Assembly (NCBI RefSeq): GCF_000304355.2 | Contig: NC_018227.2 | Span: forward strand, 1,922,001 to 1,986,000 | Direction: 5' to 3' | From: Methanoculleus bourgensis MS2 | GTDB taxonomy: Archaea; Halobacteriota; Methanomicrobia; Methanomicrobiales; Methanoculleaceae | DNA: 64,000 nt | Shown here: positions 14,141 through 29,425 of the stretch, in pieces | Numbering within the stretch: position 1 is the first letter of the stretch | Layout of the letters: each line of letters starts with the position of its first letter | Notes under the pieces: generated by a model | The model's input: only the letters and a program-made list of their open reading frames with translations | Databases searched by the model: none | Told to the model about the DNA's origin: nothing | Translations under genes and position numbers: made by a program

Positions 14141-15337
14141 TCAAGCCCCGGTCAGCCCGCCGCTCACCGAGCCGATCCACTCCATGAGAGACGCCCAGGC
14201 CCCTTCGAGCATCCCGGTCACCCCGGAAGGCTCGCTGGGCGGCGGGGCCTCCGGTGCCGGGGTGTCGTCGGGAACGTCAGGGGTCGTCTCCGGCACGTCC
14301 GGTGTCTGCACGGGCTCAGGATTCAGGTCGAGGGAGGCTGATCCGGTCATCGGCGGGATATACCCCACGTTCCCGGGCACCACGAACCAGCACCGCCCGT
14401 AGGCATCGACGAAGAGTTTCTTGACGACGTTTGAGCGAATGCCGTCCCGCGATGTGAGATGCAGGGCGACGCCGGATCCGTTCCATCCGTAGATCCCGTT
14501 ATCGGACGCGATAAGGAGCATCCCCCCGGATGTTGCCGCGATATCGTTGATAGCGACCGGGAACTCCTCCAGGTCCCCGGAGTGGAGGACAGGGGTGACC
14601 CCCGCGCCCGGGGCATACCGGAGGACCGTCGTGCGGTTGAAGAGGTACACGCCCCCGAAGGGGTTGGCCCGCACTTGGGAGACCCCCTGGACTGGTTCAT
14701 CCCGGTAGACCACCGGCTCAAACCGGACCTCCCCGACCCTGTCCCGGAGCACCCGGACGCCATCGCGCTCCGACCCGATGACGAGCGCATCGCTCGCGGC
14801 ATCGACCGCCATGCTCACGATGGTATGACATCCCAAGTTCTCGGGTCCGAGCGGTTTGTACCACGTCCAGTTCCCGTCGTGGTAACGGTGGAGGCCTGCC
14901 CGCCCGGTGGCAACCCAGACCTCATCTCCCCACCGCACCATGCAGTTGATGTTCAGGTTCTTGAGGAACTGCTGGTCCTGGATGACTTCGTACCCGGTCC
15001 CGGTCTGGAACTGCAGCCCGTTCGGGTAGCCTATCCAGAGGTGGCCCCCGGAGTCCAGGGCAACGGCGCTCACCATGATATTGAGGGGCGCGAGCATGCC
15101 GTAGGCTGTCTCCCCGGGGTGCCTCGTGTTGACCGAATACCAGGTCCCGTTTGCCGTATACACAGAGATACCGCTATCGGTCGCGAAGATGACATCCCCA
15201 TACCTGCCGTTGGTCACATCCTTCACCCCGGCGGACGCGATACCTGTATCGTAGTCGGGAACTTCGATGTAGATGGCTGATGATAAAGGGATGAGAAGAG
15301 ATGCCAGAACAGCAGAGATTATAAGAGTTTGGTACAT
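14141..15337 (-). CDS. Secreted beta-propeller-like protein at the end of the che operon
   Basis: A 398-aa protein of unknown function. Residues 1-21 form a Sec-type signal peptide (MYQTLIISAVLASLLIPLSS). Residues of about 25-330 contain repeated strands of the pattern DSGGHLWIGYPNGL, WGDEVWVATGRAGLHRY, SDALVIGSERDGVRVL, GMLLIASDNGIYGW and YGRCWFVVPGNVGYI. These resemble the blades of two-component-regulator-type propellers. A Pro/Glu/Thr-rich linker follows, then a short Gly/Ser-rich amphipathic C-terminus. The gene overlaps cheD by 19 bp, so it is the last cistron of the chemotaxis unit. I infer an extracytoplasmic role linked to motility or sensing; other roles remain possible. Confidence 0.75.
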   Translation of the reverse strand: MYQTLIISAVLASLLIPLSSAIYIEVPDYDTGIASAGVKDVTNGRYGDVIFATDSGISVYTANGTWYSVNTRHPGETAYGMLAPLNIMVSAVALDSGGHLWIGYPNGLQFQTGTGYEVIQDQQFLKNLNINCMVRWGDEVWVATGRAGLHRYHDGNWTWYKPLGPENLGCHTIVSMAVDAASDALVIGSERDGVRVLRDRVGEVRFEPVVYRDEPVQGVSQVRANPFGGVYLFNRTTVLRYAPGAGVTPVLHSGDLEEFPVAINDIAATSGGMLLIASDNGIYGWNGSGVALHLTSRDGIRSNVVKKLFVDAYGRCWFVVPGNVGYIPPMTGSASLDLNPEPVQTPDVPETTPDVPDDTPAPEAPPPSEPSGVTGMLEGAWASLMEWIGSVSGGLTGA

Positions 15338-15813
15338 GTTCCGTCCGCCCTCTTGATGATCAGGCGGCCCTTCTTCTCGGGCCAGTAATACACCGACCGG
15401 CCAACCTTCCCGCCGGTCTCCTCATGCGCGATCCTGACACCCAAGTCGTTGAGCAGCCCCCTCACCGCGGCAGTGTTCCTCTCCCCGATATTCAGGGAGT
15501 TTGCCGAATACTCAAACATGCTCGCACCGCCGATGACATTCGCCGTGATCGCGGACCTCGTGCTCCCGAGCCTCTCCATCTCCAGGAGGAGGGCACTTGT
15601 GGCGGTGTCCGCAAACTTGCCGGGCCGGTCGGTGTTCCCACGGCTTTCCGGGAGCATGATGTGTGCGAGCCCCCCGAGTGATTGCCTCTGGTCGTGCAGG
15701 ATGAGTGCGATACAGGAACCAAGCCCGATCGTCCCCATCGGGCACGTCCCGACCCGGAGTTCGCCAAGGCCCAGGATTACAGCCTTCTCTTCACCAAAAA
15801 AATTGTTATCCAT
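15319..15813 (-). CDS. cheD: Chemoreceptor glutamine deamidase CheD
   Basis: CheD deamidates receptor glutamines and is a partner of CheC. The 164-aa chain carries the catalytic Cys in GLGSCIALILHD (Cys34) and the His in GLAHIMLPE (His51). The downstream GKFADTAT and NVIGGASMF segments, with the IGERN turn, are also typical. It lies 17 bp after cheC on the minus strand, the usual CheC-CheD pairing in Archaea. Confidence 0.95.
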   Translation of the reverse strand: MDNNFFGEEKAVILGLGELRVGTCPMGTIGLGSCIALILHDQRQSLGGLAHIMLPESRGNTDRPGKFADTATSALLLEMERLGSTRSAITANVIGGASMFEYSANSLNIGERNTAAVRGLLNDLGVRIAHEETGGKVGRSVYYWPEKKGRLIIKRADGTCTKLL

Positions 15814-15830
15814 GCTATTCGTGCGGCTTT

Positions 15831-16445
15831 TCAGGTGAGCGGCGTCATCAGGTCTTCCAGCATCGTGAACAACTGCTGCATGAGTTCTGGTTTCGGGAGC
15901 ATGTAGATGCTCCCGTAGATGGGCGGCGCCTCGCTCGTAAGCTCGGTGTTGAAGATCAGGATATCATTCACGTCACCGGCCATCTGTGCTATGATGGACT
16001 CAAAGGCGGCATGCGCCATATCAATGGCCAGCGCCGGCGGGGACGGCAGCATAATGATCTCCAGAAGTTCGGCGGTCGCATCAAGAAACGCCGATATCAT
16101 GATATTCCCGATCTCGATTGCGGCGCTCTGGTCCATCTCGTTGATCTCGCGGTCGGCGTCGGTGGTGCCGAGCATCTGGTTCGTCAGCCGGACGATGGTC
16201 TCCCGAGGCATGCTGACGACGATATACCCTCCGTCCGCGACCTCCCCCTGGATCTGGAAGACGACAATGGCTGCTATCTCGTTGCCGATGTAGTTGTGCA
16301 TATCAGCGATATCAACTGCCTGCACCTCCGGCACCGTCATCTCAATCGGGCTCATCAGCATCTGTGAGAGGCTTGTCGCAGCGTGCGCCGCACCGATGTT
16401 CCCAAGTTCCCTCAGCGCATCAGCCTGAAACGGGTCAAGTTCCAT
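15831..16445 (-). CDS. cheC: CheY-P phosphatase CheC
   Basis: A 204-aa CYX-family phosphatase. Two D/S-x3-E-x2-N active sites are visible: D9-ALR-E13-LG-N16, and S-AAI-E-IG-N in the second half (near residue 107). Two active sites are the CheC hallmark. It acts on CheY-P and binds CheD, whose gene is next. Confidence 0.95.
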   Translation of the reverse strand: MELDPFQADALRELGNIGAAHAATSLSQMLMSPIEMTVPEVQAVDIADMHNYIGNEIAAIVVFQIQGEVADGGYIVVSMPRETIVRLTNQMLGTTDADREINEMDQSAAIEIGNIMISAFLDATAELLEIIMLPSPPALAIDMAHAAFESIIAQMAGDVNDILIFNTELTSEAPPIYGSIYMLPKPELMQQLFTMLEDLMTPLT

Positions 16446-16456
16446 GAAAACGTCTC

Positions 16457-18352
16457 CTACACAATCGTGTTCACATCGAGAACCGGCACAACCTCGCCGT
16501 CTCCCGGGATGGTGATCCCGCTGATCCCGCGGCAGCTTCCTGCAAGCCGGGAGAGCGGTTTCACCACCACTTCCTGCTGGCCGTCCACGGTATCAACGAC
16601 GATACAACATTTTCTGCCGCTGTTCTGCAGCACAACGAGCGTATCACTCTTCTGCGCCCGGCCAAACATATCCTCAAGGCGGTACATGGGAAGGATCTCG
16701 TCGCGAAGCAGGACCGTCTCGGCATCGCCGATCCGGTGGATCGCTTCCGGCCTGGCCAGGGCCACCTCGACGACGTTGCTGATCGGAATGGCACACCGCC
16801 TCCCGTTGATCTGCACCATCATGACGTCGATGATCGCCATCGTCGGGGGCAGCATCAGCTCAAACGTCGTCCCGCTGCCGAGTTCGGACTCGACCCTGAT
16901 GGTCCCCTTGAGCGACTCAATGGTCTGCCTGACCACATCGAGACCGACACCCCTGCCGCTGATGTCGGTGATCGTCTCAGCCGTGCTGAACCCGGGCTCG
17001 AAGAGCAGGTTGATGAGGTCCTCTTTTGTTGCGGCCGCTGCCGCTTCGGGCGTCATGATGCCTTTGTTCACCGCTTTATCCTTGAGTTTCTCAGGGTCGA
17101 TACCGGCACCGTCGTCCTCGATCTCGATGATGACGTTATCCTTATCCCTCCGTGCAGTCAGCCGGAGCGAGCCCTTCCGCGGTTTCCCGTTGGCCTCGCG
17201 GACCTCCGGGAGCTCGATCCCGTGGTTTACGGCGTTCCTGATGATGTGCAGGAGCGGGTCGGAGAGCCCGTCCATCATACCCCTGTCAAGCTCGGTCTCG
17301 CCGCCCTCGATGGTAAACTCAACCTCCTTTCCGTCATGGGTCGCGACGTCCCGCACAACACGGGGAAGGCGGTTGAAGATGCGGTCAAGCGGCATCATCC
17401 TGATTCCCATCATGAGGTTCTGGAGGTCTGAGACCGAACGGCCGATCATACTCAGCGCTTCATCAAACTCCTTGATGCCGTGCTTCCTTGCTATCTGTTC
17501 GAGCCGTCCGCGGTTGATCACCAGATCCTCGACAAGATTCATCATCTGGTCGAGCCGCTGGATATCGACGCGGATATTCTTGATCTCGCGGCTCTTTTCG
17601 CCCCTGGCCGGCTTAGGCGCCGGCGGTTCGGGCTTCTGAGTCTCCTCCGGCACCTCCGGTGCCAGGGATAGTTCAAGAAGCGAGATCTCGGTACCTGAGG
17701 CGACGGTCCGGAGCGCCTCCTCCCCCGCCTCGCTTGCGATCCGGATCTCAATCGGTCCGTCGAACTTCCCGTCCTCGATAAGGTCCCGCGTGGGCGTTGT
17801 TCCGAGGATCGTCCCGATCTCGTCAAGGTTCTGCAGGAGCAGCATGGCCCGGACGTCTTTCATGGCGCAGGAGGGGTCGATGGCGACTGATAACGTGTAG
17901 ACGGGTCCACCAACCCCCTCTACCGCTGCCACTGCCTTATGGGGGGTCTCCTGCTCGTCATCAGGGGCTTCCTCGGTGAACGCCCGGAGTTCCTGCACCA
18001 GGCTCCCTGACGCCTCATCTGAGGATGCCCCGCCCGCCTCGATCTCGTCCAGCATCTCCTCGATCGCGTCGGTGCAGGTGAGCAGAAGGTCGGTGAGGGA
18101 CACAGTCACCTCCCGGCGGCCGCTGCGGATGAGCGAGAAGACATCTTCCATCGAGTGACAGAGATGCTCCATTGCATCAAACCCCATCGATGCCGACATC
18201 CCCTTGAGCGTATGAGCGGACCGGAAGATCTCATCGATAGCAGCTTGCTGGTCTTCCCCGCTCTCAAGGGCGAGGAGGTTATTTACGATATTCTCGTGGT
18301 TCTCCCGTGACTCCTCAACAAAGAGTTTCCGGTATACCTCTTCATCAACCAT
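16457..18352 (-). CDS. cheA: Chemotaxis histidine kinase CheA
   Basis: A 631-aa cytoplasmic kinase that phosphorylates CheY and CheB in receptor arrays. The HPt domain has the phospho-acceptor in RSAHTLKGMSASMGF (His47). The P3 dimerisation region contains VDIQRLDQMMNLVEDLVINR. The ATPase N-box DPLLHIIRNAVNHGIE is near residue 370, with G-boxes DDGAGIDP and GRGVGLDVV, and a CheW-like P5 domain is at the C-terminus. It overlaps cheB by 8 bp. No cheW, cheR or receptor gene occurs in the window, so those partners must lie elsewhere. Confidence 0.97.
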   Translation of the reverse strand: MVDEEVYRKLFVEESRENHENIVNNLLALESGEDQQAAIDEIFRSAHTLKGMSASMGFDAMEHLCHSMEDVFSLIRSGRREVTVSLTDLLLTCTDAIEEMLDEIEAGGASSDEASGSLVQELRAFTEEAPDDEQETPHKAVAAVEGVGGPVYTLSVAIDPSCAMKDVRAMLLLQNLDEIGTILGTTPTRDLIEDGKFDGPIEIRIASEAGEEALRTVASGTEISLLELSLAPEVPEETQKPEPPAPKPARGEKSREIKNIRVDIQRLDQMMNLVEDLVINRGRLEQIARKHGIKEFDEALSMIGRSVSDLQNLMMGIRMMPLDRIFNRLPRVVRDVATHDGKEVEFTIEGGETELDRGMMDGLSDPLLHIIRNAVNHGIELPEVREANGKPRKGSLRLTARRDKDNVIIEIEDDGAGIDPEKLKDKAVNKGIMTPEAAAAATKEDLINLLFEPGFSTAETITDISGRGVGLDVVRQTIESLKGTIRVESELGSGTTFELMLPPTMAIIDVMMVQINGRRCAIPISNVVEVALARPEAIHRIGDAETVLLRDEILPMYRLEDMFGRAQKSDTLVVLQNSGRKCCIVVDTVDGQQEVVVKPLSRLAGSCRGISGITIPGDGEVVPVLDVNTIV

Positions 18353-19379
18353 GATTGACCTCGAGCCTGTTGACCGCTCTTACGATCTCCCGCGCAAGAC
18401 CCTCGAGTGGAACCACCTTGTCGACGCTGTTCCGGGTGAGGGCGGATCGTGCCATCCCGTAGACGAGGCAGTCTTCTTCAGCGCATACCATTGTGGTGCC
18501 ACCTGCAGTCTTCACCGCGAGAGTACCCTCACCGCCGTCGTTTCCCATCCCCGAGAGAATCACTGAGACCGTTCGCGGGCCGAAGACGTTCGCGGCGGAG
18601 GTGAACGTCTTATCGACGGCCGGTCTGACTGCATGCAGGGGAGGGGCGGTCGAGTGGATGACCCGCCCGTGGTTTCTCCCGCCGGCTGCATAGATCCCGG
18701 ATATCACGGTGTGATATCCGGCCTTCGAGACCAGGACTGTCCCGGTCTCGAGGGTGTCTCCGTTTGTGGTCTCTTTCACCGGCAGGGGCGAGACACGGTT
18801 CAGGCGTTCGGCGAGCGATGCGGTGAATCCCTCAGGCATATGCTGGGTGACGACGACCGCTGCGGGCAGGTCAGGCGGGAGCGCGGAGAGGAGTGTATCA
18901 AGCATCGGCGGTCCTCCGGCAGACGAGCCGATCAGCACTGCCGCATCGGCGCTCTTCTGCCGGGTCTCCCGGGTTTTTATGATCGTCGGAAGGGAGACGA
19001 GGTTCTTGATCTTCTGGATGAGTTCTCTCTCGATGCCCCTGACCTTCGGGACGTCCCTTGGTTTGAGCATGAAGTCATCAGCCCCGAGACGGAGCGCCCG
19101 GTGGGTCATATCGGCCTGCCGGGACGTCAGCGTGCTCAAAACAATCACCTTCGGTTTCACGCTCTCCCCCTGGAGGGCTTCAAGAACCTCAAGGCCGCCC
19201 ATCCGGGGCATCTCGATATCGAGGGTGATAACGTCGGGTTTCAGCTCTGATATCTTCGCAAGGGCATCGATACCGTTGACCGCCGTCCCGACGATCTCGA
19301 TATCAGGGCTGCCTTTGAGCATGTCCCGCAGGATCGTCCGGATAAAGAGTGAGTCGTCGACGATCAGAACCCGTATCAT
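18345..19379 (-). CDS. cheB: Receptor methylesterase CheB
   Basis: A 344-aa response regulator-methylesterase. The receiver domain starts MIRVLIVDDS and has phospho-Asp54 (ITLDIEMPRMGG). The esterase domain shows the Ser in LIGSSAGGPP (about 152), the His in TQHMPEGF (180) and the Asp in GMGNDGGEG. The ATG at 19379 is used because the longer frame upstream runs into cheY. It starts 2 bp after cheY. Confidence 0.96.
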   Translation of the reverse strand: MIRVLIVDDSLFIRTILRDMLKGSPDIEIVGTAVNGIDALAKISELKPDVITLDIEMPRMGGLEVLEALQGESVKPKVIVLSTLTSRQADMTHRALRLGADDFMLKPRDVPKVRGIERELIQKIKNLVSLPTIIKTRETRQKSADAAVLIGSSAGGPPMLDTLLSALPPDLPAAVVVTQHMPEGFTASLAERLNRVSPLPVKETTNGDTLETGTVLVSKAGYHTVISGIYAAGGRNHGRVIHSTAPPLHAVRPAVDKTFTSAANVFGPRTVSVILSGMGNDGGEGTLAVKTAGGTTMVCAEEDCLVYGMARSALTRNSVDKVVPLEGLAREIVRAVNRLEVNHG

Positions 19380-19381
19380 GG

Positions 19382-19744
19382 TTACGCACTGAGAACGTTC
19401 TTCACTTCTTCGAGAACCTTTGGGGCCTGGAACGGTTTGACGATGTAGCCTCTCGCACCGCTCTTGATAGCAAGTTTGACCATCTGCTCCTGGCCGACCG
19501 CCGTGCACATGATGACCTTTGCCGCCGGGTCGGCGGCCTTGATGGCCTTGAGCGCCTCGATCCCGTTTACTTTCGGCATAACAACGTCCATCGTGACGAG
19601 GTCGGGTTTGAGTTCCTGGTACCTGGCAAGCGCCTCCGCGCCATCGGCTGCCTCACCGACGATGTCGTGTCCGCCGGAGAAGAGGATGTTCTTCAGCAGC
19701 GTTCTCATAAACATTGTATCATCGACGATCAGGATTCTCCCCAT
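19382..19744 (-). CDS. cheY: Chemotaxis response regulator CheY
   Basis: A 120-aa single receiver domain with the acidic pair in ILIVDDT (D8-D9), phospho-Asp53 in VTMDVVMPKVNG, a Thr in VIMCTAVG and the Lys in YIVKPF. In Archaea CheY-P signals through CheF to the ArlCDE ring. It is the first gene of a unit with its own TATA box and is followed by cheB, cheA, cheC, cheD and the propeller gene. Confidence 0.96.
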   Translation of the reverse strand: MGRILIVDDTMFMRTLLKNILFSGGHDIVGEAADGAEALARYQELKPDLVTMDVVMPKVNGIEALKAIKAADPAAKVIMCTAVGQEQMVKLAIKSGARGYIVKPFQAPKVLEEVKNVLSA

Positions 19745-19775
19745 CGAACACCACTCAATGAGTATTTGAAGAATA

Positions 19776-19788
19776 CTGTATATAGACC
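19776..19788 (-). promoter_or_regulatory. TATA box of the cheY unit
   Basis: On the minus strand it reads GTCTATATACAG, about 35 bases before the cheY ATG. It separates the cheYBACD unit from cheF. Confidence 0.55.
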
Positions 19789-19800
19789 TTCGTATTCTGG

Positions 19801-19812
19801 AAAAATAAGATT
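19801..19812 (-). terminator. T-rich terminator after cheF
   Basis: Right after the cheF TAA the minus strand runs AATCTTATTTTT, a T-tract typical of archaeal termination. The cheY promoter follows. Confidence 0.45.
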
Positions 19813-19813
19813 A

Positions 19814-20623
19814 TTAATTTGTTGAGGATTTTACTGCATCAGAGATATACCGGACGCCTTTAGCGGTCAATTGTATCTCTTTCCTGACGTAGAGCACCTC
19901 AGCGAACCCGGTGGCAAGGAGCCGCTCATAGATGGCGTCGAGGTCTTTGTGCGAGAGTTTGAGCATGTTCTCGATTGCACTTGAGTCCATCCCGCTGTAG
20001 ACCAGCATGGCCACCTGCCCGGTCAGCGGGTCGAGTTCTCCTTCATATTCTGAGTTCTGTGTCGCCTCACTGAGGAAGTTGTAGAGAACCTGGAGCGTTG
20101 TCTTCGGGCAGAGGACGAAACTTGTCACGACCTCGTTCTCGATGAGATGGTCGATCTTCACGACATCAAGATCCTTCTCCTGGATCTCCCGGCGCGTGAA
20201 CTCGATGCCTGCCACGTCTCCCAGCGGTATGCAGACCTGGCTCTCCTGGCTGACGAACCAGATGCCGGTCTTCATGACTGCGATCGCGCCCTTCTCCCAG
20301 TGGGCGTCCTGAACGAGCACTCCTCCGCGTATTGCGGGCGACATAAAGAAGGCGTTCAGCCGGTAGGCGCTGCACTGGGTGATAATAAATTTCTTTAAGA
20401 CCGAGAGGACCTTCTCAACTGATGCGATGCGGTAGGTCTCCTCCGCATCCGGACCGGCGGTGATCAATACCTGGTTCTTCTTCTCCTCGAGATCGACCAT
20501 GGATTTATAGGGGATCTCGCAGTCGAGGGGGGCGCCGATATGGATACGGTCCTCACCGATGCCCATTGTCGTCGGGATCCACTTCCCTTCATGCTCAATC
20601 TTCACCGGAACAGATTTCATCAT
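19814..20623 (-). CDS. cheF: CheF, chemotaxis-archaellum adaptor
   Basis: CheF proteins exist only in motile Archaea and bridge CheY-P to the archaellar motor. The 269-aa chain has the expected two halves. An N-terminal PH-like region contains EHEGKWIPTTMGIGEDRI and a FVSQESQVCIPL strand; a C-terminal winged-helix-like region contains GQVAMLVYSGMDSSAIE and LSHKDLDAIYERLLATG. ATG 20620 is an alternative start. The position between the arl genes and cheY supports the call. Confidence 0.9.
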   Translation of the reverse strand: MMKSVPVKIEHEGKWIPTTMGIGEDRIHIGAPLDCEIPYKSMVDLEEKKNQVLITAGPDAEETYRIASVEKVLSVLKKFIITQCSAYRLNAFFMSPAIRGGVLVQDAHWEKGAIAVMKTGIWFVSQESQVCIPLGDVAGIEFTRREIQEKDLDVVKIDHLIENEVVTSFVLCPKTTLQVLYNFLSEATQNSEYEGELDPLTGQVAMLVYSGMDSSAIENMLKLSHKDLDAIYERLLATGFAEVLYVRKEIQLTAKGVRYISDAVKSSTN

Positions 20624-20669
20624 CGCCGTTGCACCTCCTCCTGTATTATTTCCTCACAAAAGACCATCA

Positions 20670-21722
20670 TCATTTTGATTTCAGCATTGTGAGGATCTCC
20701 TCAAGTTCTGCAGCAAGTTCTCTTGCGCAGTATTTCTCTCCTCGTAGCTCGCGGACCAGGCTGATATCCTCCACAAACTTCTTTTTCTTTACGTCGGATT
20801 TGAGCGCGGCGATCAGATCGTCATCGACCATGCCGCCGGAGGCGAAAGAGACCATATCAAAGTCTTCTTCCGGCGGCTCGCCCGGCTCGTCAGGGACCTC
20901 TTCCTCAGGGGCGGGCTCATCCGCATCGATCTCTTCATCATCGACTTCCTCACCCTCAATCTCGATCTCATCGAGGTCAAGGTCGTCGAGTGCTGAGAGT
21001 TCCTCGCTCAGCGCACTCATATCAGGCAGTCCTGAGAGGTCTGCGGCGATTCCGGAGTCGCCGGGAAGGTCAAGGTCGAGATCCTCAAGTTCGCTCTGGT
21101 GCGCCTTGAGGATCTCTGATACGGCGCTTGCCTCTTCCTCGGAGAGGAGGGAGATCTGGTCAGACTCAAACGCTGTCTCCGGACCGGCAGCCTCATCAAG
21201 GTCGAGGTTGTCCAGGGAATCGAGGTCGAGGTCCGCGAGCGCGGCGAGGGGATCAACCACACCCCCGGCGGTCTTTGAGGGGGCCGGGGATGCGGCCTGA
21301 TCGGGGGCCGAGCCGTCGACCGCCTGGTCGAGCATGGCATCGATCTCCTTGATCGATCTCTTCTTCTCGCCTTCAGGGGTACGGGCATGCGTGATCGCCT
21401 CCCGGACCGATGCCGTGAGAGTCCCGAGCATGCCGGCGAGGTCGATCTCGGTGGAGGCAAGTCTCTGAATGAGGGGTGGTTTTGGCGCTGCAGTATCAGG
21501 TTTTTCCTTCTTCTCCTTCTTCGACCGCTCCCGGAGCGCGGCACGCAGTCGTGAGGGCTTCAAGTCTGCAGGATCCAGCGCTCCGGTGACGAGGAGCGCG
21601 CAAAACCCTGCGAGCACGGTGCCCGCGACGATGACCTCGACCGGGGCATCGATGATGATGATCAGGGATCCTGTACCGACAGTGATCAGGAACAGGAGCG
21701 GCCGGCGTACGTTCTCCTTCAT
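20670..21722 (-). CDS. Acidic membrane-anchored protein between arlJ and cheF (unnamed)
   Basis: A 350-aa protein from ATG 21722. Two closely spaced hydrophobic helices at about residues 6-50 form a hairpin, followed by a basic stretch (RSKKEKKEKP). A long Asp/Glu-rich low-complexity region repeats the LDDLDLDE type of phrase. The C-terminus is a predicted helix (CARELAAELEEILTML). I do not recognise a family. It starts 2 bp after arlJ and is followed 46 bp later by cheF, so it belongs to the archaellum transcript. A membrane-tethered cytoplasmic scaffold at the motor or a motor-chemotaxis link is a reasonable inference. Confidence 0.8.
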   Translation of the reverse strand: MKENVRRPLLFLITVGTGSLIIIIDAPVEVIVAGTVLAGFCALLVTGALDPADLKPSRLRAALRERSKKEKKEKPDTAAPKPPLIQRLASTEIDLAGMLGTLTASVREAITHARTPEGEKKRSIKEIDAMLDQAVDGSAPDQAASPAPSKTAGGVVDPLAALADLDLDSLDNLDLDEAAGPETAFESDQISLLSEEEASAVSEILKAHQSELEDLDLDLPGDSGIAADLSGLPDMSALSEELSALDDLDLDEIEIEGEEVDDEEIDADEPAPEEEVPDEPGEPPEEDFDMVSFASGGMVDDDLIAALKSDVKKKKFVEDISLVRELRGEKYCARELAAELEEILTMLKSK

Positions 21723-21723
21723 G

Positions 21724-23328
21724 CTATACCCCCGCAAATGTTGGAATGGTGAAGAATGCGCTCACAATGATCGGTGCAACGATGTAGACGATGCCGGTGG
21801 TCGCACAGAGCAGGCTTGCGAAGAAGTAGTAGATGTACCGGTCGCCGCCCATGACAATCCTTCCCGCAAACATGTTTGCAATGGTCAGCATTAAGAGGAT
21901 CGTCACCACGTACGTCCGCATCGTATCTTCAGGGAAGTCTACGAAGATATTCAGGGCCATCCCCATGCCGCCGCCGATCGTGGACGAGCCTCCCGAGAGC
22001 GCAGCCGAGGTCTCTGCAAAATGGTCCATCACGTCTGTCACCGCGTGGGACATCGTGAGGAGGATCTCGAAGAGGAAGACGAAGATACCGATCATCGCCC
22101 CGTGCATCGGCACGAGCAGGACGACAAACCCCTTCACCATCATGTCGCGTTTCCTCCTGAGGAGAACCTGTTCGAGCATCGATGAACCGGTGATCTTTCC
22201 TATCTCGTCCGGGGATCCGCCGAGGGCCACCGCGTCACGGAAGATGTTCATGTACTTGTAGATCAGGTAACTGCCGGTCTCGCCGATGAACTTCCTCCAG
22301 CTCGCGGCTTCATCGAGCCCGAGGTTCAGTTTCGATGATACCGAGTCGATGAACGGCTCCAGGTAAGGGAGGGATTTTTTGTCCACCTCCTGGAGTGCAT
22401 CGCCGGTGGTGATGCCCTTGCCCCCCATCACCGACCCGAGGCTCCGGATAAACGTGGAGAAGTCGGTGTCACGGTTGATGACGTTGGCATCATCGATATA
22501 GCCGATGATCCCAAGCGGCATCAGGAGCAGACCGGCGAGCAGGAATATAACACCGGCGTTGACGCCGATGAGGATGAGGATAAGTGCGATTGCGGCGACG
22601 ATCGGTAGGACCAGGCGCTCCATTCTCCGGATGATGCCCTGCTCCCTGGAACAGATCGCTGTAAGCCCGTGCGTCCTCGGGTCGTCGGGGACGGCCCGGT
22701 ACATGATCCCGAGGCCGAAGATTGATATGCCGATGATGAGGGTATATGAGGCGTTGAGCGCCTGATCAATCCCGCCGGGGGCGTAGATCGCCACCGATAT
22801 CATGATGATGATCGCGACAAGTGCAGCCGAGAGGAGCATCGCGATGTAGGCGTCGCCCCATTTCTTCAGGAGCTCGATCCCCTGCTCAAACGTGTTTCTG
22901 TAAATACTCCTGATGCTTGAGAGCTCCGTGGTGATGAAGTCGTCGTCGGGAACCCCGGAGTCGATGGAGTTTGCGTAGCGGTTCAGCATGCTCTGGAGGG
23001 TCTTGTTCCGGCACCGTTCGGCGACCGCCCGGAGCCCTTCGGCATAACTGTAGCCCCACCCGGCGACCAGGCGCTGCACCTTTGCAATATAGCGCGACGG
23101 GACGTACTCGAACCTCTCAGATGTGTATTCAAAGATCTCGGGCCTGGTCACGGCTGCCGTGGTGATCGCGGCCATGTAGGTGTACATGAAGAGCAGGTCC
23201 TGCTCCATCTTCTTGTTCTCGAGGACGGATGACCGGAGGTCGCTTAAGTACTCTACCTGGTCCTCGAACGGTAGTTTGCCCTGATTTGCCTCCCTCAGCC
23301 GATCAGCCACGTCCTCGAACAACGTCAC
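21724..23328 (-). CDS. arlJ: Archaellum platform protein ArlJ (FlaJ)
   Basis: The polytopic membrane platform of the archaellum motor, related to TadC/GspF. It is 534 aa with two T2SSF-type cytoplasmic regions (near ARVVAGWGYSYAEGLRAVAERC in form, and EVDKKSLPYLEPFIDSVSSK). Membrane helices cluster around residues 165-290 and 400-534. It overlaps arlI by 4 bp. The preceding ATPase ArlI drives it. Confidence 0.93.
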   Translation of the reverse strand: MTLFEDVADRLREANQGKLPFEDQVEYLSDLRSSVLENKKMEQDLLFMYTYMAAITTAAVTRPEIFEYTSERFEYVPSRYIAKVQRLVAGWGYSYAEGLRAVAERCRNKTLQSMLNRYANSIDSGVPDDDFITTELSSIRSIYRNTFEQGIELLKKWGDAYIAMLLSAALVAIIIMISVAIYAPGGIDQALNASYTLIIGISIFGLGIMYRAVPDDPRTHGLTAICSREQGIIRRMERLVLPIVAAIALILILIGVNAGVIFLLAGLLLMPLGIIGYIDDANVINRDTDFSTFIRSLGSVMGGKGITTGDALQEVDKKSLPYLEPFIDSVSSKLNLGLDEAASWRKFIGETGSYLIYKYMNIFRDAVALGGSPDEIGKITGSSMLEQVLLRRKRDMMVKGFVVLLVPMHGAMIGIFVFLFEILLTMSHAVTDVMDHFAETSAALSGGSSTIGGGMGMALNIFVDFPEDTMRTYVVTILLMLTIANMFAGRIVMGGDRYIYYFFASLLCATTGIVYIVAPIIVSAFFTIPTFAGV

Positions 23329-25187
23329 ACCTCGATGTTGAGCAGACCCTGTTTCTTGATCTTCGTGGTCATGTGGAAGAGGTCCCAGAACTGGGTGTAT
23401 CCGGCTTTGTGGAGCCGTTCGAGGATCCGGGCACGTTTATCGACCTCGTCGTAGATCTCGGCCCGCCTGTTCTCGGGGATGCCGAGCATCGTTGCGATCT
23501 TGTTCTCGAGGAGGTAACTGCTCCCTCTGCCGGTGAAGGTGAAGGTGTCGGTTGCTGGGTCCCAGACGAACGCCGCCATGAAGGAGAACCCCTCTGTCTC
23601 GGGGTCGTAGCCCACGAGTTCGTTGATGCTGAGCATCCGCCGGACGGTCCCGCCCCCCGGGAGTTTCACGGCGCTCTGGATGATGACCAGGTTGAGGTTG
23701 TCGACGTAGGTCTTCGGGATGTTGATAGGGTCCCCGCAGAGACGCTGGATCAACTTCTCGACCGACGCGGCGTGGAAGGTGCTCATCACCGGGTGGCCGG
23801 TCTGCATCGCAGAGAACGCGACTGATCCTTCCACGCCACGGATCTCGCCGACCAGGATCTGGTTCGGGCGCTGACGGAGGGCGGCTTTGAGGAGGTCAAA
23901 CATCGTGACCTCCGAGCCTTCGCCTTCGCCCTTCCCCTTGGCTTTCGCGACCTCACGGGTCCAGTTCCTGTGGGGGACCGTCAGTTCGGGGGTATCCTCG
24001 ATGGTGACGATCTTGTTCTCGGGCGGGAGGAACGTTGTTAAGGCGTTTAAGGACGTCGTCTTACCGCTCGCGGTCTCGCCTGAGACGAACATCGACATCC
24101 CGTACTCGAGGCAGATCCAGAGATATGCGGCCATCATGTAGTTGCACGTCCCGCTCTCGATGACCTGCATGATGCTCATGGGGACCTCGCTCACCTTACG
24201 GATGGTGAAGTTGCTGCCGTGCTTGCTGATCTCGGTCCCGTAGACGATGTTGATACGCGAACCGTCGGGGAGGGTCGCGTCCACGATGGGGTTTCTGTAG
24301 GTCAGGGGCCGTTTGATCCGTTCGGCAAGTTTTATGACGAATTTGTCGAGTTCGGTCGAGTCCCGGAACCCGACGACCGATTTTAAGCCTTTGAAGATCT
24401 TGTGCTCGATGAAGATCGGTCCGACGCCGCCGCAGGTGATATCTTCGATGTACCGGTCGGAGAGGAAGGGTTTGAGGGTCCCCATCTCGATCTTGTCGCG
24501 GATCATCAGGTACTCAAGCGCCTTATACTCCTGCTGCGAGAGGATGACCCGGCCGTCGGAGAGTTCAGGGAGCCCGTCCGCCTGCGGTTTTGCCGATGCA
24601 CCGATATCGGAGGTGAGGAATTGTATGATCCGGTCTTTGAGGTCTTTTGGCGTCCCGCCGGAGAGCAGGGATTCATCGACCTCCTCACCCGGCTGCCTGA
24701 CATACACAAGCTGCTGGATGAAGTTCCTGAGCACCTCGATACGCGCCTCATCGGTCACCGGCTCCTCGTCGAGGGCATCGATCATGTCGATGAGTTTCTC
24801 CTCGATCACCGGGAGGATCGCTTTTACGGAGTGGAGGAACGAGGGTTCGATCGGGATGTACCAGTTCCGTACATCGTCAGGGTCAGGGAAGATATGGATG
24901 AAGGTTGTCTCGTTCACCGGGTAGATGATGTTCGGGTTCTCCATCGATTTGAGGTCACGCTTCAGTTCCGAGAGGAAGAGCGGGATCCCGACGGTGTTGA
25001 CCGGCAGGATGTGGAGGTACTCAAGGAGGTGCGGACTCTCCCTGACATAGTCCCGGGCGTTTGCCGGGAGCATCCGGTAGAGGGCGCAGGACTCTACGTT
25101 GTTGTAGCAGTCGTTCCCCTCGTCGATGAACTCGGGCTCGAAGGGGAGGGTTACTGTTGCTTCCAGCGCCGATCCCATCCTCCTCAC
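23325..25187 (-). CDS. arlI: Archaellum motor ATPase ArlI (FlaI)
   Basis: The hexameric secretion/rotation ATPase of the archaellum. It is 620 aa. The Walker A GETASGKTTSLNAL is near residues 368-381, and DTPELTVPHRNW and RQRPNQILVGEIRG give the Asp box and Walker B. TGHPVMSTFHAAS supplies the His box. ATG 25178 is an alternative start. It overlaps arlH by 4 bp and arlJ by 4 bp, a tight translational chain. Confidence 0.96.
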   Translation of the reverse strand: MRRMGSALEATVTLPFEPEFIDEGNDCYNNVESCALYRMLPANARDYVRESPHLLEYLHILPVNTVGIPLFLSELKRDLKSMENPNIIYPVNETTFIHIFPDPDDVRNWYIPIEPSFLHSVKAILPVIEEKLIDMIDALDEEPVTDEARIEVLRNFIQQLVYVRQPGEEVDESLLSGGTPKDLKDRIIQFLTSDIGASAKPQADGLPELSDGRVILSQQEYKALEYLMIRDKIEMGTLKPFLSDRYIEDITCGGVGPIFIEHKIFKGLKSVVGFRDSTELDKFVIKLAERIKRPLTYRNPIVDATLPDGSRINIVYGTEISKHGSNFTIRKVSEVPMSIMQVIESGTCNYMMAAYLWICLEYGMSMFVSGETASGKTTSLNALTTFLPPENKIVTIEDTPELTVPHRNWTREVAKAKGKGEGEGSEVTMFDLLKAALRQRPNQILVGEIRGVEGSVAFSAMQTGHPVMSTFHAASVEKLIQRLCGDPINIPKTYVDNLNLVIIQSAVKLPGGGTVRRMLSINELVGYDPETEGFSFMAAFVWDPATDTFTFTGRGSSYLLENKIATMLGIPENRRAEIYDEVDKRARILERLHKAGYTQFWDLFHMTTKIKKQGLLNIEV

Positions 25188-25927
25188 ACCTTCGCAACCG
25201 AGACCGGGATGATCTTGATGCCGTACCCGGGGTGGACCTCGAAACTGATGATGTTCCCCGTCGTCTTTCGTGCGCCGCGGACCTTGACGACCTCGAGCAT
25301 CATGACGTACTTGCCGCCGACGAGCGCCTTCTTCATGAAGAGGTGAGCGTCGCAGATCGAGCGGATACGGACAAGGGAGTCCTCGACGAAGGCGTAGGTG
25401 TGCAGGGTGATCAGGATGGTCTTGCCGTGGTCGACGAGGTTTTTGCAGTTCGTGAAGAACGTGAGGACCGTGTCCTGCCTGGCGTACTCGGTGAAGAGCG
25501 TGAGGGAGTCGATGACGATCACCTCTGCCCTGCTCTGCTCCATGTAGGCGATCATCCGCTCAAGCGTCCCCTGCATCTTCTCCTTCGTCCATTCGAAACC
25601 GACGACGTGCATGGGAAAGACCCGGAGGTAGCCCCAGGCGAAGTAGTCGGAGATATCGAGGCTCATCGACTCCATCTGGGTGAGGAAACTCTTGCTCGTG
25701 TTCTCAGTCGAGAAGAGGTCGACGTTGAATCCCTGTTTTAAGGCCCCCCATATGATCTGCTGGGTCAGCACGCTCTTTCCTGTGTCGTTCTCTCCCTCGA
25801 TGAGCGAGAGGGACTGGAGCGGGAGGCCGTCTGCGATCTTCTTGTCGAGTTCGGTGTTCCCGGTCGAGAGGATCGTCCGATCAGGCATCTCAAGGATGCT
25901 GTTGTTTGCGTCTTCGCTTGTAGCCAT
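25184..25927 (-). CDS. arlH: Archaellum regulatory ATPase-like protein ArlH (FlaH)
   Basis: A RecA/KaiC-like nucleotide-binding protein that sits under ArlI within the ArlX/ArlCDE ring. It is 247 aa, with Walker A GENDTGKS at 45-52 and a Walker B-like VIVIDSLTLF. Its place between arlF and arlI follows the standard archaellum order. Confidence 0.95.
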   Translation of the reverse strand: MATSEDANNSILEMPDRTILSTGNTELDKKIADGLPLQSLSLIEGENDTGKSVLTQQIIWGALKQGFNVDLFSTENTSKSFLTQMESMSLDISDYFAWGYLRVFPMHVVGFEWTKEKMQGTLERMIAYMEQSRAEVIVIDSLTLFTEYARQDTVLTFFTNCKNLVDHGKTILITLHTYAFVEDSLVRIRSICDAHLFMKKALVGGKYVMMLEVVKVRGARKTTGNIISFEVHPGYGIKIIPVSVAKV

Positions 25928-25933
25928 GGTTAT

Positions 25934-26410
25934 TCACCGGATGTATGCTGAACTCGAGACCCCGTTCGGGGTGACGACCTGGACCCATGTGGGTTGTGCG
26001 TCTTTCTCGTGGGTGATCCGGAGGGTGAGGGTCTCGCCGGGGTCAAGTTCCCTGGGGTGGATATGGTCAGGGTCTATCCCCATATTGCTCCAGTAGTTCA
26101 CATCCCCCACATTATAGGGGACATAGACCGGGGCGTTCCCGATGTGGAGGTAGACGTCGATCAGCTGGATATCGACGACCGGTTCGCTCCCGGTGTTCTT
26201 CACCTCGACAGAGAGGGTCTCGTTGTCGACGATCGTCGTGTTCTGGATCTCGATCGCCGTCCGCATCCGGGCTTCCTGGTACATGGCGAGATTGCTCTGG
26301 GCCTCGACCATCACCTCAGTGGTTGCGAGGGTGCCGCCGACCAGGACGTAGGCGGTGACGACCAGGAGGAGGATGCCGATCCCGGATGCAACGAGGGGTC
26401 CCGCACTCAT
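25934..26410 (-). CDS. arlF: Archaellum stator protein ArlF (FlaF)
   Basis: A 158-aa protein with an N-terminal helix (ASGIGILLLVVTAYVLVGG) followed by an archaellin-like beta-sandwich with VDNETLSVEVKNTGSEPV. ArlF and ArlG form a filament-like complex that anchors the motor to the S-layer. It starts 2 bp after arlG and ends 6 bp before arlH. Confidence 0.85.
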   Translation of the reverse strand: MSAGPLVASGIGILLLVVTAYVLVGGTLATTEVMVEAQSNLAMYQEARMRTAIEIQNTTIVDNETLSVEVKNTGSEPVVDIQLIDVYLHIGNAPVYVPYNVGDVNYWSNMGIDPDHIHPRELDPGETLTLRITHEKDAQPTWVQVVTPNGVSSSAYIR

Positions 26411-26412
26411 GG

Positions 26413-26916
26413 TTATGTACCTGCGGTGAATGTGGTCGACCGTGAGAGTCCTGTGGAGAGGACGAACTGGACGTAGACAACCTCCCCGGGACCGGGGATC
26501 CTGTCGCTATGGCCCTGGATGTAGAGGGTCTCGCCGGGGTCCCAGTAGTTGTTCTTCTGGGTGTCCTCGAGGATCTCGTAGGTCCACTGGTTCGATCCCG
26601 GTGTGCTTGGTGGTACAACCAGGCCGAGCCGGGTGAAGTTCCCCGGGGCCCCGAGGAAGACATCGGCCTTCCCGATGTCTGATGGGGATATCCTGGCTGT
26701 TCCGACGTTCTTTAACCAGATTCTGGCTTCATCTCCGCTGGCATACGTCGTGACGATCTTCACATCGTTACTCAACCGTTCGTCCACTGTGTGGGAGGAA
26801 GACGAGATCGTGCCTGCGAGGGTGTAGATTACGGGAAAGACTGCGTTAATGAGGACGCCGGCCGCAATGATGGCGGCGATAAGGAACATCGCTGTGGTGA
26901 AGGCTTCGCTTGACAT
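26413..26916 (-). CDS. arlG: Archaellum stator protein ArlG (FlaG)
   Basis: A 167-aa protein with an archaellin-like N-terminal helix (TTAMFLIAAIIAAGVLINAV) then a beta-rich extracellular domain (ARIWLKNVGTARISPSDIG). In Archaea ArlG forms a filament capped by ArlF in the pseudoperiplasm. The assignment of F and G relies on the N-terminal sequence pattern and order, so a swap is possible but unlikely. Confidence 0.82.
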   Translation of the reverse strand: MSSEAFTTAMFLIAAIIAAGVLINAVFPVIYTLAGTISSSSHTVDERLSNDVKIVTTYASGDEARIWLKNVGTARISPSDIGKADVFLGAPGNFTRLGLVVPPSTPGSNQWTYEILEDTQKNNYWDPGETLYIQGHSDRIPGPGEVVYVQFVLSTGLSRSTTFTAGT

Positions 26917-26919
26917 CCA

Positions 26920-27729
26920 TCATATCCTATCCAGCAGGTCGATCCAGGTATCACCGGCATCACGTTCGGGTGAGGATGGTTTCCCGGCGCTCTGTTCTCC
27001 CGGGCGGCGGTGGGCGAGCATCAGCACCTCGATCATGTCCCGGTCGAGCGTCGCGTCCTCGGGGTCGAGGATCCGGTTTAAGACGTAGAGTTCTGAGACA
27101 AACTCGTTCGGGCCGATATCCTGGATATCTCTCCGGGTCTCGGGGGCCATCCGCATGATGTCCCGGACCTGGTCGGAGACTTCGTCGGTGATGTAGCCCA
27201 TCGACCGGTAGGCGTCGATCATGATTGTCATGTGCTCGTGCCCGTATTTCCTGCATCCCTGGTGCACCCACTCAAACAGCCGGTGGACCTTCTGGAGTTT
27301 GAGTTTCCCTGTAGGTTTTGCCTGCGGGAGCGTGAGTGTGCCGTCCGTGGGGAGGCAGGCCGTTGCGATGTCTGCCGGGAAGAGGTCAGCCGCGTCCAGG
27401 CTGCCGGCGAGCGGACCTTGGAACCCATCTGTGTCCTGCAGGCTGCTCATACCAGAGGGTGCATCGTCAAATGCGGTATCCTCATCGGCCTTGTCCTCAC
27501 TATCTGTCAGGAGGTCCTGTCGCTCGAACCGACCCCCTGCATACGCGGCGGCGCTGGTGAACGGGTTGTCCAGTTCGTTCATCCGCTCCCGGAGGTCGAT
27601 AAGAAGTCGCTTGATCGATGTCTTGACAAAGTCCAGCTCCTTCTCGAGGGTGTCGAGACGGGCCTCCGGGTCATCGGATGATGCACCGGCAAGTATCTTA
27701 TCGATCTGAGCCTGATCTACCCCCACCAT
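26920..27729 (-). CDS. ArlC/D/E-type archaellum ring protein, fused form
   Basis: A 269-aa cytoplasmic protein. Residues of about 22-57 match the coiled ArlC part (LEKELDFVKTSIKRLLIDLRE then LDNPF; shown in pieces). An Asp-rich linker follows, and residues of about 140-195 match the ArlD/E domain (HRLFEWVHQG...GYITDEVSDQV). In Euryarchaeota ArlC/D/E form the cytosolic ring that receives CheF/CheY signals. Here one gene appears to carry the C-like and D/E-like modules. It starts the main arl operon with a TATA box about 27-35 bp upstream. Confidence 0.82.
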   Translation of the reverse strand: MVGVDQAQIDKILAGASSDDPEARLDTLEKELDFVKTSIKRLLIDLRERMNELDNPFTSAAAYAGGRFERQDLLTDSEDKADEDTAFDDAPSGMSSLQDTDGFQGPLAGSLDAADLFPADIATACLPTDGTLTLPQAKPTGKLKLQKVHRLFEWVHQGCRKYGHEHMTIMIDAYRSMGYITDEVSDQVRDIMRMAPETRRDIQDIGPNEFVSELYVLNRILDPEDATLDRDMIEVLMLAHRRPGEQSAGKPSSPERDAGDTWIDLLDRI

Positions 27730-27753
27730 AATGTTGAATTATATGAGTGTTAT

Positions 27754-27766
27754 CATTAATAAAATT
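27754..27766 (-). promoter_or_regulatory. TATA box of the arlCDE operon
   Basis: The minus strand reads AAATTTTATTAATG, about 30 bases from the ATG at 27729. Transcription would begin almost at the start codon. Confidence 0.55.
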
Positions 27767-28095
27767 TGCTCATATCGATACAGGATTTCCTGTCGCTTTA
27801 CTATCTTCTAATCTTTCTCGCGGACTGGTTTGGGGTACTGGCTGTTGATATCGCTGATGGCGACGGGGAGGATCCGTGGTGGCGACTGGCAGGGCATTTT
27901 GTGTGGGGTGGTGGAAAGTGCTCGCTGGGTTCGAGAGGGTCAGCGGGTTTATATCTCACGGCCCGGACGAAATATGCCGGGGCCGGTGCTGGAAGCTCAG
28001 GTGCGTTTCATAAAAAATGCGCATGGGCACCTGGATCGAGCACGGGTGTCGTGGCTGGGATTACCCGGAACGGTGTTCGCACCGGTTGCCCGGGG
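27767..28095. other. Gap between archaellin and arlCDE units, no gene seen
   Basis: About 330 bases with no supported gene. The short frames here lack ribosome sites and protein-like composition. One AT-rich patch (GGGTTTATATCTCAC near 27946) resembles a plus-strand TATA box with nothing obvious behind it. Confidence 0.5.
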
Positions 28096-28106
28096 GAAAA
28101 AGAGGG
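28096..28106 (-). terminator. T-rich terminator after the archaellin pair
   Basis: The minus strand reads CCCTCTTTTTC about 20 bases after the second archaellin stop. It would separate archaellins from the motor genes. Confidence 0.45.
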
Positions 28107-28124
28107 TTAGTGGGGTGTTCACTG

Positions 28125-28835
28125 TTAGATGATGTTTACCGCGTACAGGGACGACGGCACGGTCTTCTTGATCGGGAAGGCAGCACCGACCGCCGGCTGG
28201 AGGTTCACGGAGAACCGGGTGTTGGGTGTCAACACTGTCGGCCCCTCACCATTTCGTGGGAACGCGACCGCCAGGACAAACTGCTCACCAGGTTCGAGGA
28301 GATTATTCCTGTTCTCGGTAGCATTAGTCGCGTTGATGCCAATGTCATTGTACGTCATAATGACGCCCCAGGCGCCTTCTTTGGTGCTGTTGGCGGCAGC
28401 AATGATGGCGTCCCTGGCCCCCGTTTCGTTATTCTTGCCACTTGTCCCATTAACACCTTTGATGGAGGCAGAACCGTTAAACGGTATGACCTGTGCTTCC
28501 TCTCCGCAGACAAACGTCACCAGCATCTGGTTGATATCGATCGGTGTACCGCCAGCGGTATTTCCAACGGTAAACTCGATCCACTCCAAGTATCCTTGTT
28601 GAGTAGCGTTTACAGTTGTGTTCGTAGTCCTGCCATAGACGTTACCGATGATCTCCAGGCTGGAGCTGGCCTGCTGCGACCCGGTGTGCACGGTCCTCTG
28701 CGCCTCCTGGGTCGCGAAGAACCCGGCCCCGAGCATCACGTACGAGAATACCGCCGCCACGACGATGAACGCGATCAGCACGATCGCCGCCTCAAGCCCG
28801 GTGAATGCATCTTCGTTCTTAAGTAGTTTCATCAT
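28125..28835 (-). CDS. Archaellin (second copy)
   Basis: The filament subunit. The class III signal peptide ends KNEDAFTG before LEAAIVLIAFIVVAAVFSYV, the hydrophobic core of the filament. The third ATG (28835) is chosen because GAGGTGA lies 6 bases upstream; two further in-frame ATGs flank it. The mature domain has about eight N-X-S/T sequons (NTT, NAT, NGS, NGT, NET, NST, NAT, NAT). The ribosome site overlaps the stop of the first archaellin, coupling the two. Confidence 0.95.
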   Translation of the reverse strand: MMKLLKNEDAFTGLEAAIVLIAFIVVAAVFSYVMLGAGFFATQEAQRTVHTGSQQASSSLEIIGNVYGRTTNTTVNATQQGYLEWIEFTVGNTAGGTPIDINQMLVTFVCGEEAQVIPFNGSASIKGVNGTSGKNNETGARDAIIAAANSTKEGAWGVIMTYNDIGINATNATENRNNLLEPGEQFVLAVAFPRNGEGPTVLTPNTRFSVNLQPAVGAAFPIKKTVPSSLYAVNII

Positions 28836-28846
28836 GTTCATTCACC

Positions 28847-29425
28847 TCAGTAGACCTCATATTTATGGCTCGCTTTCAAGTCGGGTGGTGCTATCCGGTT
28901 GATCGGGAGCCTCGCACCGACGTCAGGCTTGACCTCTACGGTGAACCGGTCGTTCGGTTCGATAACGGGTAGTGTTCCCGCATCATTCTCCCCCGGGATC
29001 ACGATCTGCACAGTCTCGAATCTTTCGAGCAATTCATTCATATCAGTCTTATTAACTCCATCCTGATACCAAGTATGGCTAACATTTGCATACTGGTAGG
29101 TCGTCATATTCTTAGCCGTCGATACGGTGAAGATTACCTTCTGCATATCCACCGGTGCCCCCCCGGCAGCAAGCTGCAGGAAGAATCTTATATCGGTCAC
29201 ATTACCATCAGCAGACCCGTTCACGATCACCGGCCCCGATAACTCGACGGCCGAACTCGCCTGCGCCACGCCCGTATCCACGACCCTCTGCGCCTCGCCG
29301 GTTGCGAAGAACCCGGCGCCGAGCATCACGTATGAGAAGACCGCGGCCACGACGATGAATGCGATCAGGACAATCGCCGCCTCAAGCCCGGTGAATGCAT
29401 CTTCATTTTTCACCAATTTACTCAT
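28847..29425 (-). CDS. Archaellin (first copy)
   Basis: A 192-aa filament subunit whose first 50 residues are almost identical to the second copy (KNEDAFTG cleavage site, same core helix, GFFATGEAQR). The C-terminal domain is shorter and diverged, with five N-X-S/T sequons (NGS, NVT, NMT, NVS, NKT). It has an AGGAGG-type ribosome site upstream of the ATG. It is the first gene downstream of a strong TATA box and a leader hairpin. Confidence 0.95.
   Translation of the reverse strand: MSKLVKNEDAFTGLEAAIVLIAFIVVAAVFSYVMLGAGFFATGEAQRVVDTGVAQASSAVELSGPVIVNGSADGNVTDIRFFLQLAAGGAPVDMQKVIFTVSTAKNMTTYQYANVSHTWYQDGVNKTDMNELLERFETVQIVIPGENDAGTLPVIEPNDRFTVEVKPDVGARLPINRIAPPDLKASHKYEVY

Follow-up and report, generated by a model that had tools for sequence, protein, structure and literature searches.

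The protein encoded at positions 14141–15337 on the minus strand of the window, that is, the whole 64,000-nucleotide stretch of Methanoculleus bourgensis MS2 DNA that was analysed, probably belongs to the outer parts of the archaeal swimming apparatus and not to the chemotaxis system. This protein (398 aa, ATG start, one copy in its own genome), here called PROP, is predicted to be a secreted seven-bladed beta-propeller, and its gene is the last of a single unidirectional archaellum-chemotaxis cluster (14141–29425, minus strand). Because it co-occurs with archaellins and is retained where che genes are missing, PROP follows the archaellum and not chemotaxis. We are fairly confident that it acts on the outer side of the membrane together with the archaellum, and it is rather likely to be a lineage-specific extracytoplasmic accessory of the Methanomicrobiales archaellum.

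The original prediction placed PROP at the end of a chemotaxis operon; it is indeed the last gene, but this operon is the downstream half of the larger cluster. Counting upstream from PROP, all on the minus strand, Pfam recognises cheD (15319–15813, CheD 1.2e-26), cheC (15831–16445), cheA (16457–18352), cheB (18345–19379, its start picked within a longer ORF), cheY (19382–19744) and cheF (19814–20623). The role of the last is taken from the literature, in the part of the source used here, where CheF is the adaptor linking chemotaxis and the archaellum (PMC4858521). The archaellum half consists of arlJ (21724–23328, T2SSF), which encodes the platform protein, arlI (23325–25187, T2SSE), which encodes the motor ATPase, the KaiC-like arlH (25184–25927), an arlF-like stator gene (25934–26410; NF052590 4.7e-9, under its cut-off), an arlG-like stator gene (26413–26916; NF052591 6.3e-6, under its cut-off, and Arch_flagellin 7.3e-11), an arlCDE-like gene (26920–27729, Arch_fla_DE 2.5e-4) and two archaellin genes (28125–28841 and 28847–29425). 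Between arlJ and cheF lies a divergent gene, U355 (20670–21737), whose product shows, by eye, a pair of hydrophobic segments near the N-terminus, a long low-complexity acidic region and a C-terminus alike in relatives, and which has no Pfam or NCBIfam family above cut-off. U355 is recognised after arlJ in most loci read, with a similar-sized unmatched ORF there in several others, and may be a further unnamed archaellum part. The genome has a single MCPsignal match, so that the whole chemotaxis cluster may serve one receptor.

The earlier description of PROP as a propeller protein with a signal peptide is borne out by a Sec-like signal, a Reg_prop match over its cut-off and a propeller model. 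The predicted Sec signal peptide (residues 1–21, 15275–15337) was placed by eye and from homologue rows; by a home-made rule, 65 of 69 chosen homologue rows have a Sec-like core with an AXA-like site after it, and three of the four misses (L070, L085 and L118) are ORFs whose starts were called too far upstream. A position-locked count gives 27 of 69 rows only, because the N-termini vary in length. The 69 rows are a selection that includes five Methanoculleus-type sequences only, the window among them, and from which L068 was dropped for masked letters. No lipobox was found in the scanned stretch of these rows. A class III (pilin-type) signal peptide was also considered; by eye, PVSA- or PASA-like ends recur and the position following the basic residue varies, and Sec is therefore preferred.

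Reg_prop (PF07494) is the sole Pfam family in PROP at E ≤ 1, scoring 23.4 bits against a gathering cut-off of 20.4, with no individual repeat passing; at the same threshold there is no kinase, Y_Y_Y or PilY1 family match. Against NCBIfam, PorZ alone appears (E 0.024, far under the PorZ cut-off), and no ArlF or ArlG model matches at E ≤ 0.1. The AlphaFold2 model (mean pLDDT 70.7, pTM 0.69), computed from a shallow alignment of 13 close sequences (the window and 12 of 15 loci), places the propeller domain at residues 22–330 (14348–15274). Blade counting by structure prediction, proposed earlier as a check, gives six four-stranded blades and a three-stranded seventh within residues 38–327, with pLDDT mostly 75–93 in the blades; an N-terminal strand at residues 23–25 (pLDDT about 40) could complete the seventh. 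We count the model as seven-bladed, with the seventh blade three-stranded unless that strand joins. By sequence, the closest protein of solved structure is the propeller of the BT4663 sensor (4a2l, 1.4e-9), and the best 15 Foldseek rows include the propellers of BT4673, BT4663 and BT3049 (3ott, 4a2l). Ycf48 is found among the matches by fold (5ojp, Foldseek) and by sequence (8am5, E 0.023), and among the 50 best VIA-align entries propellers give Z values of 24.4–26.6, with Vgb lyases at the top. Thus, as a prediction, the propeller fold is secure, and its specific relatives are not.

Beyond the propeller, the model has, at low confidence, a Pro/Thr-rich linker (residues 331–375, 14213–14347) and a C-terminal helix (residues 376–392, 14162–14212), and by eye the protein has no second hydrophobic segment. 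The helix is amphipathic by eye and by a moment count whose shuffle values are biased, the best window having been picked first; the script left out L112 although its tail is long, and this locus was counted by hand. A tail of at least 45 residues past the propeller is present in 7/7 rows of family f1, 7/7 of f2, 18/18 of f6, 8/27 of f5 and 0/10 of f4, and a shorter one in 29 of the 69 rows, namely all ten f4 rows and 19 of the 27 f5 rows, one of the 29 being a truncated ORF (L088). Since tails are short in f4 and in most of f5, tethering by the tail cannot apply to every member, and comparison of the rows suggests that the tail is not the core of the function. The families are divergent, with 27–48% identity to the window protein in alignment A3. 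In a tree of 68 rows, f1 and f4 are clades, f5 is a clade if the tree is read as unrooted, and f2 and f6 are not clades.

The 19 bp by which the end of cheD overlaps the start of PROP, noted in the original prediction, lie at 15319–15337, and the linkage of the two genes is conserved in relatives. By coordinates, PROP directly follows CheD on the same strand in 96 of 107 carrier genomes, and it follows cheD in four more: G063 (L009, cheD found by tblastn, which is the same as L042, with identical coordinates in the named contig), G011 (L070), and G107 and G094, where the cheD pieces are cut off by contig ends. Two genomes with PROP at contig ends (G078 and G185) were left out, so that 105 of the 107 are informative; among these, PROP follows cheD in 100 and arlJ-U355 in five, and is found nowhere else. 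The two ORFs overlap in all 68 loci counted among L031–L125, a count that comprises loci with both genes called as same-strand ORFs and that measures overlap from the first possible PROP start. In 52 of the 68 loci a start is found exactly 16 nt within cheD (45 ATG, 7 GTG), and the 19-nt overlap is found in L034 and the window; the remaining 15, of which 14 belong to f6, begin in a different frame relation, with true starts that are uncertain. Five loci fall outside the 68 because a wrong upstream PROP start hid cheD, which tblastn finds in each (L036, L038, L070, L085 and L118). The linkage of PROP to cheD is not chance.

In genomes with CheD and without PROP, a replacement gene after cheD was looked for and rejected: after the last gene of the cluster, the next ORF of at least 130 aa is convergent in 10 of 12 loci. 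In one of the others (L058), a same-strand ORF of 484 aa follows the cluster, with an N-terminus unlike a signal peptide; its product is apparently cytoplasmic, and its end resembles the end of the convergent neighbour in other loci. In L057 the cluster stops at a contig end and the next ORF is unreadable. In three PROP-less loci (L054, L062 and L065), a cheC-like ORF of 548–572 aa lies convergent beyond cheD and not between cheA and cheD.

The separation of PROP from chemotaxis comes from five genomes of two genera in one family (G001, G002, G007, G008 and G009), in which PROP follows arlJ and U355 with no che gene between. Neither CheF nor CheD was found in any of the five, and neither CheB nor MCP in four of them (assemblies 56–91% complete); G001 (98% complete, nine contigs) carries a single CheB and a single MCP, on a different contig. 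The five group together with a support of 0.32 in the PROP tree and 0.999 for ArlJ. In four pairs of these genomes, three of which share three genomes, dN/dS is 0.26–0.34 for PROP, 0.10–0.19 for ArlJ and 0.28–0.52 for U355, which indicates that PROP is under purifying selection here, with weaker constraint than ArlJ. PROP is thus not lost together with the che genes, as would be expected of a chemotaxis component. As the main reading, a partnership with chemotaxis is rejected on account of these five carriers, and the original prediction of PROP as a partner of Che proteins is not supported, since PROP can stay with the archaellum genes where che is lost and the archaellum kept. Elsewhere, neither che genes nor PROP follow U355 and the archaellum operon ends there (G139, on one contig, G137, G168 and G162), so that the two are sometimes absent together. 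In two further genomes, cheF adjoins U355 in opposite orientation (G134, L150 9398–10210; G136, L151 3339–4148), and the 13.0 and 6.6 kb examined there show no further recognisable che gene; these are apparently remnants of a rearranged cluster.

At E ≤ 1e-5, a PROP orthologue is present in 107 of 232 genomes of Methanomicrobiales and in 75 of the 135 near-complete ones. A class-level search gave 232 genomes, those listed being of this order; its weaker, incomplete hits with A3, to fragments or to other propeller proteins (9.8e-17 at best), were not taken as orthologues. Outside Methanomicrobiales, none was found at E ≤ 1e-8 in a sample of 392 genomes of the phylum. A search with a 25-row alignment gives 112 of 232, the five extra genomes (G124, G125, G163, G203 and G208) having partial, weaker matches only. 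The match in G163 resembles the C-terminal part of PROP and sits at the end of a contig, next to the usual convergent neighbour, so that 107 is a lower bound. In two others, which have archaellins and CheD and lack PROP, the propeller profile matches an open frame of about 1330 aa partially at several points (G203, contig C42; G208, contig C36).

Archaellins are found in all 75 near-complete carriers, and PROP in none of 18 near-complete genomes free of archaellins. Taking all genomes together, archaellins are found in 104 of 107 carriers and in 73 of 125 non-carriers (Fisher p 1.6e-13, uncorrected for shared ancestry), and the three carriers without them are assemblies 56–83% complete. In G086, a 98% complete member of a carrier genus, PROP, CheD, archaellin and ArlJ were all not found. 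PROP thus occurs only in archaellum loci (105/105 informative genomes) and only in archaellated genomes (75/75 near-complete). Four states are seen, namely che with PROP (100 genomes), CheD alone (55, by the search threshold, 50 of them with archaellin), PROP without linked che genes (5) and neither. Because the 50 genomes with archaellin and CheD, as well as the archaellum operons without che genes, manage without PROP, the protein is dispensable.

PROP would share a transcript with the motor genes and have its translation coupled to that of cheD; it would be exported by Sec and fold as a seven-bladed propeller between the membrane and the S-layer or outside. Where present, the Pro/Thr-rich stalk and C-terminal helix may anchor it to a component of the motor or to the face of the membrane. 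An exported propeller encoded at an archaellum locus most plausibly binds other extracytoplasmic parts, and PROP could be a protein-binding platform at the filament base, which would help the ArlF/ArlG stator or the S-layer to hold or guide the rotating archaellum. Such a basal position with an anchoring role is the favoured, though tentative, reading. The more specific arrangement, a collar or bushing round the archaellum base that couples ArlF/ArlG to the S-layer in Methanomicrobiales, is rather unlikely as such; if true, it would be an anchoring solution for which no description in other archaella was found. For the question of how the archaeal envelope holds the archaellum, PROP, present in about half of the genomes of the order, is a concrete candidate part, and its role can be tested through its natural pattern of presence and absence in genomes that have chemotaxis genes and in genomes that lack them.

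Two of the alternatives, a tip or cap protein and an assembly factor, sit within the broader claim that PROP works outside the membrane, and the probabilities given here therefore overlap. Propellers are common assembly scaffolds, and PROP might serve outside the cytoplasm as a chaperone for archaellins or the motor, or as a scaffold for their maturation, in the way that Ycf48 serves photosystem II; the Ycf48 matches by fold and sequence speak for this, but relatives with archaellum genes manage without PROP, and we consider it improbable. A cap or adhesin at the tip of the archaellum or bound to its filament, in the manner of PilY1, is given a similarly low probability: PROP is secreted and tied to archaellum loci, many members have a Thr/Pro-rich stalk and the families are divergent, whereas the PilY1 family itself was not matched.

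It is also conceivable that PROP is an extracellular sensor, which would bind a ligand or surface and signal through a chemoreceptor, like Reg_prop in hybrid two-component systems. CheD acts on receptors, and the overlap with cheD as well as the best sequence and Foldseek matches, which are periplasmic sensor domains, fit such a role. Set against this are the lack of kinase and Y_Y_Y matches at E ≤ 1 and, by eye, of a second hydrophobic segment, and the retention of PROP in the four genomes in which no MCP and the five in which no CheF was found, so that this reading is distinctly improbable. Among the three options offered in the original prediction, the best fit is a part of the archaellum, for instance a stator component; a role as periplasmic partner of a chemoreceptor is disfavoured, as the search for chemoreceptors found none in those four carriers (56–91% complete). 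Finally, PROP could be a surface protein with no relation to the cluster that neutral linkage has fixed at the operon end, which would agree with its absence from many archaellated lineages. The lack of any other site among the 105 informative genomes, the overlap in every locus counted, and the five che-less genomes in which PROP is kept, apparently under purifying selection, make a mere passenger very unlikely.

A 2025 paper, in the part consulted, casts doubt on what the putative stators ArlF and ArlG do and calls for motor structures (PMC12448462). Archaellum parts named in the portions of the literature used are ArlB to ArlJ, ArlX and CheF (PMC12448462, PMC12488501, PMC4858521), and by word search "propeller" is used in PMC12448462 only for the archaellum itself and is absent from PMC12488501, PMC4858521 and PMC11641113. 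We found no description of a PROP-like protein in the open-access literature, searched by titles and the beginnings of abstracts; within that literature PROP seems undescribed.

Several known systems resemble PROP in part. The Bacteroides sensors BT4663, BT4673 and BT3049 share its Reg_prop (PF07494) repeats and give its best matches, BT4663 by sequence and all three by Foldseek. Unlike these, PROP is a single secreted propeller in an archaellum cluster, with no Y_Y_Y, kinase or receiver domain found, and it differs from a hybrid two-component sensor (HTCS) in ending in a linker and one helix. The PilY1-type tip propellers of type IV pili are, as PROP is, secreted propellers tied to a type IV-like filament, from which PROP is set apart by its lack of a PilY1 family match (Pfam E ≤ 1). 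Ycf48-type assembly propellers have the same seven-bladed secreted scaffold fold (5ojp), but PROP belongs to another system, with no lipobox seen and marginal sequence similarity. Unlike ArlF and ArlG, whose models it does not match (E ≤ 0.1), PROP has the predicted fold of a propeller; with this stator it shares the cluster and, presumably, an extracytoplasmic location.
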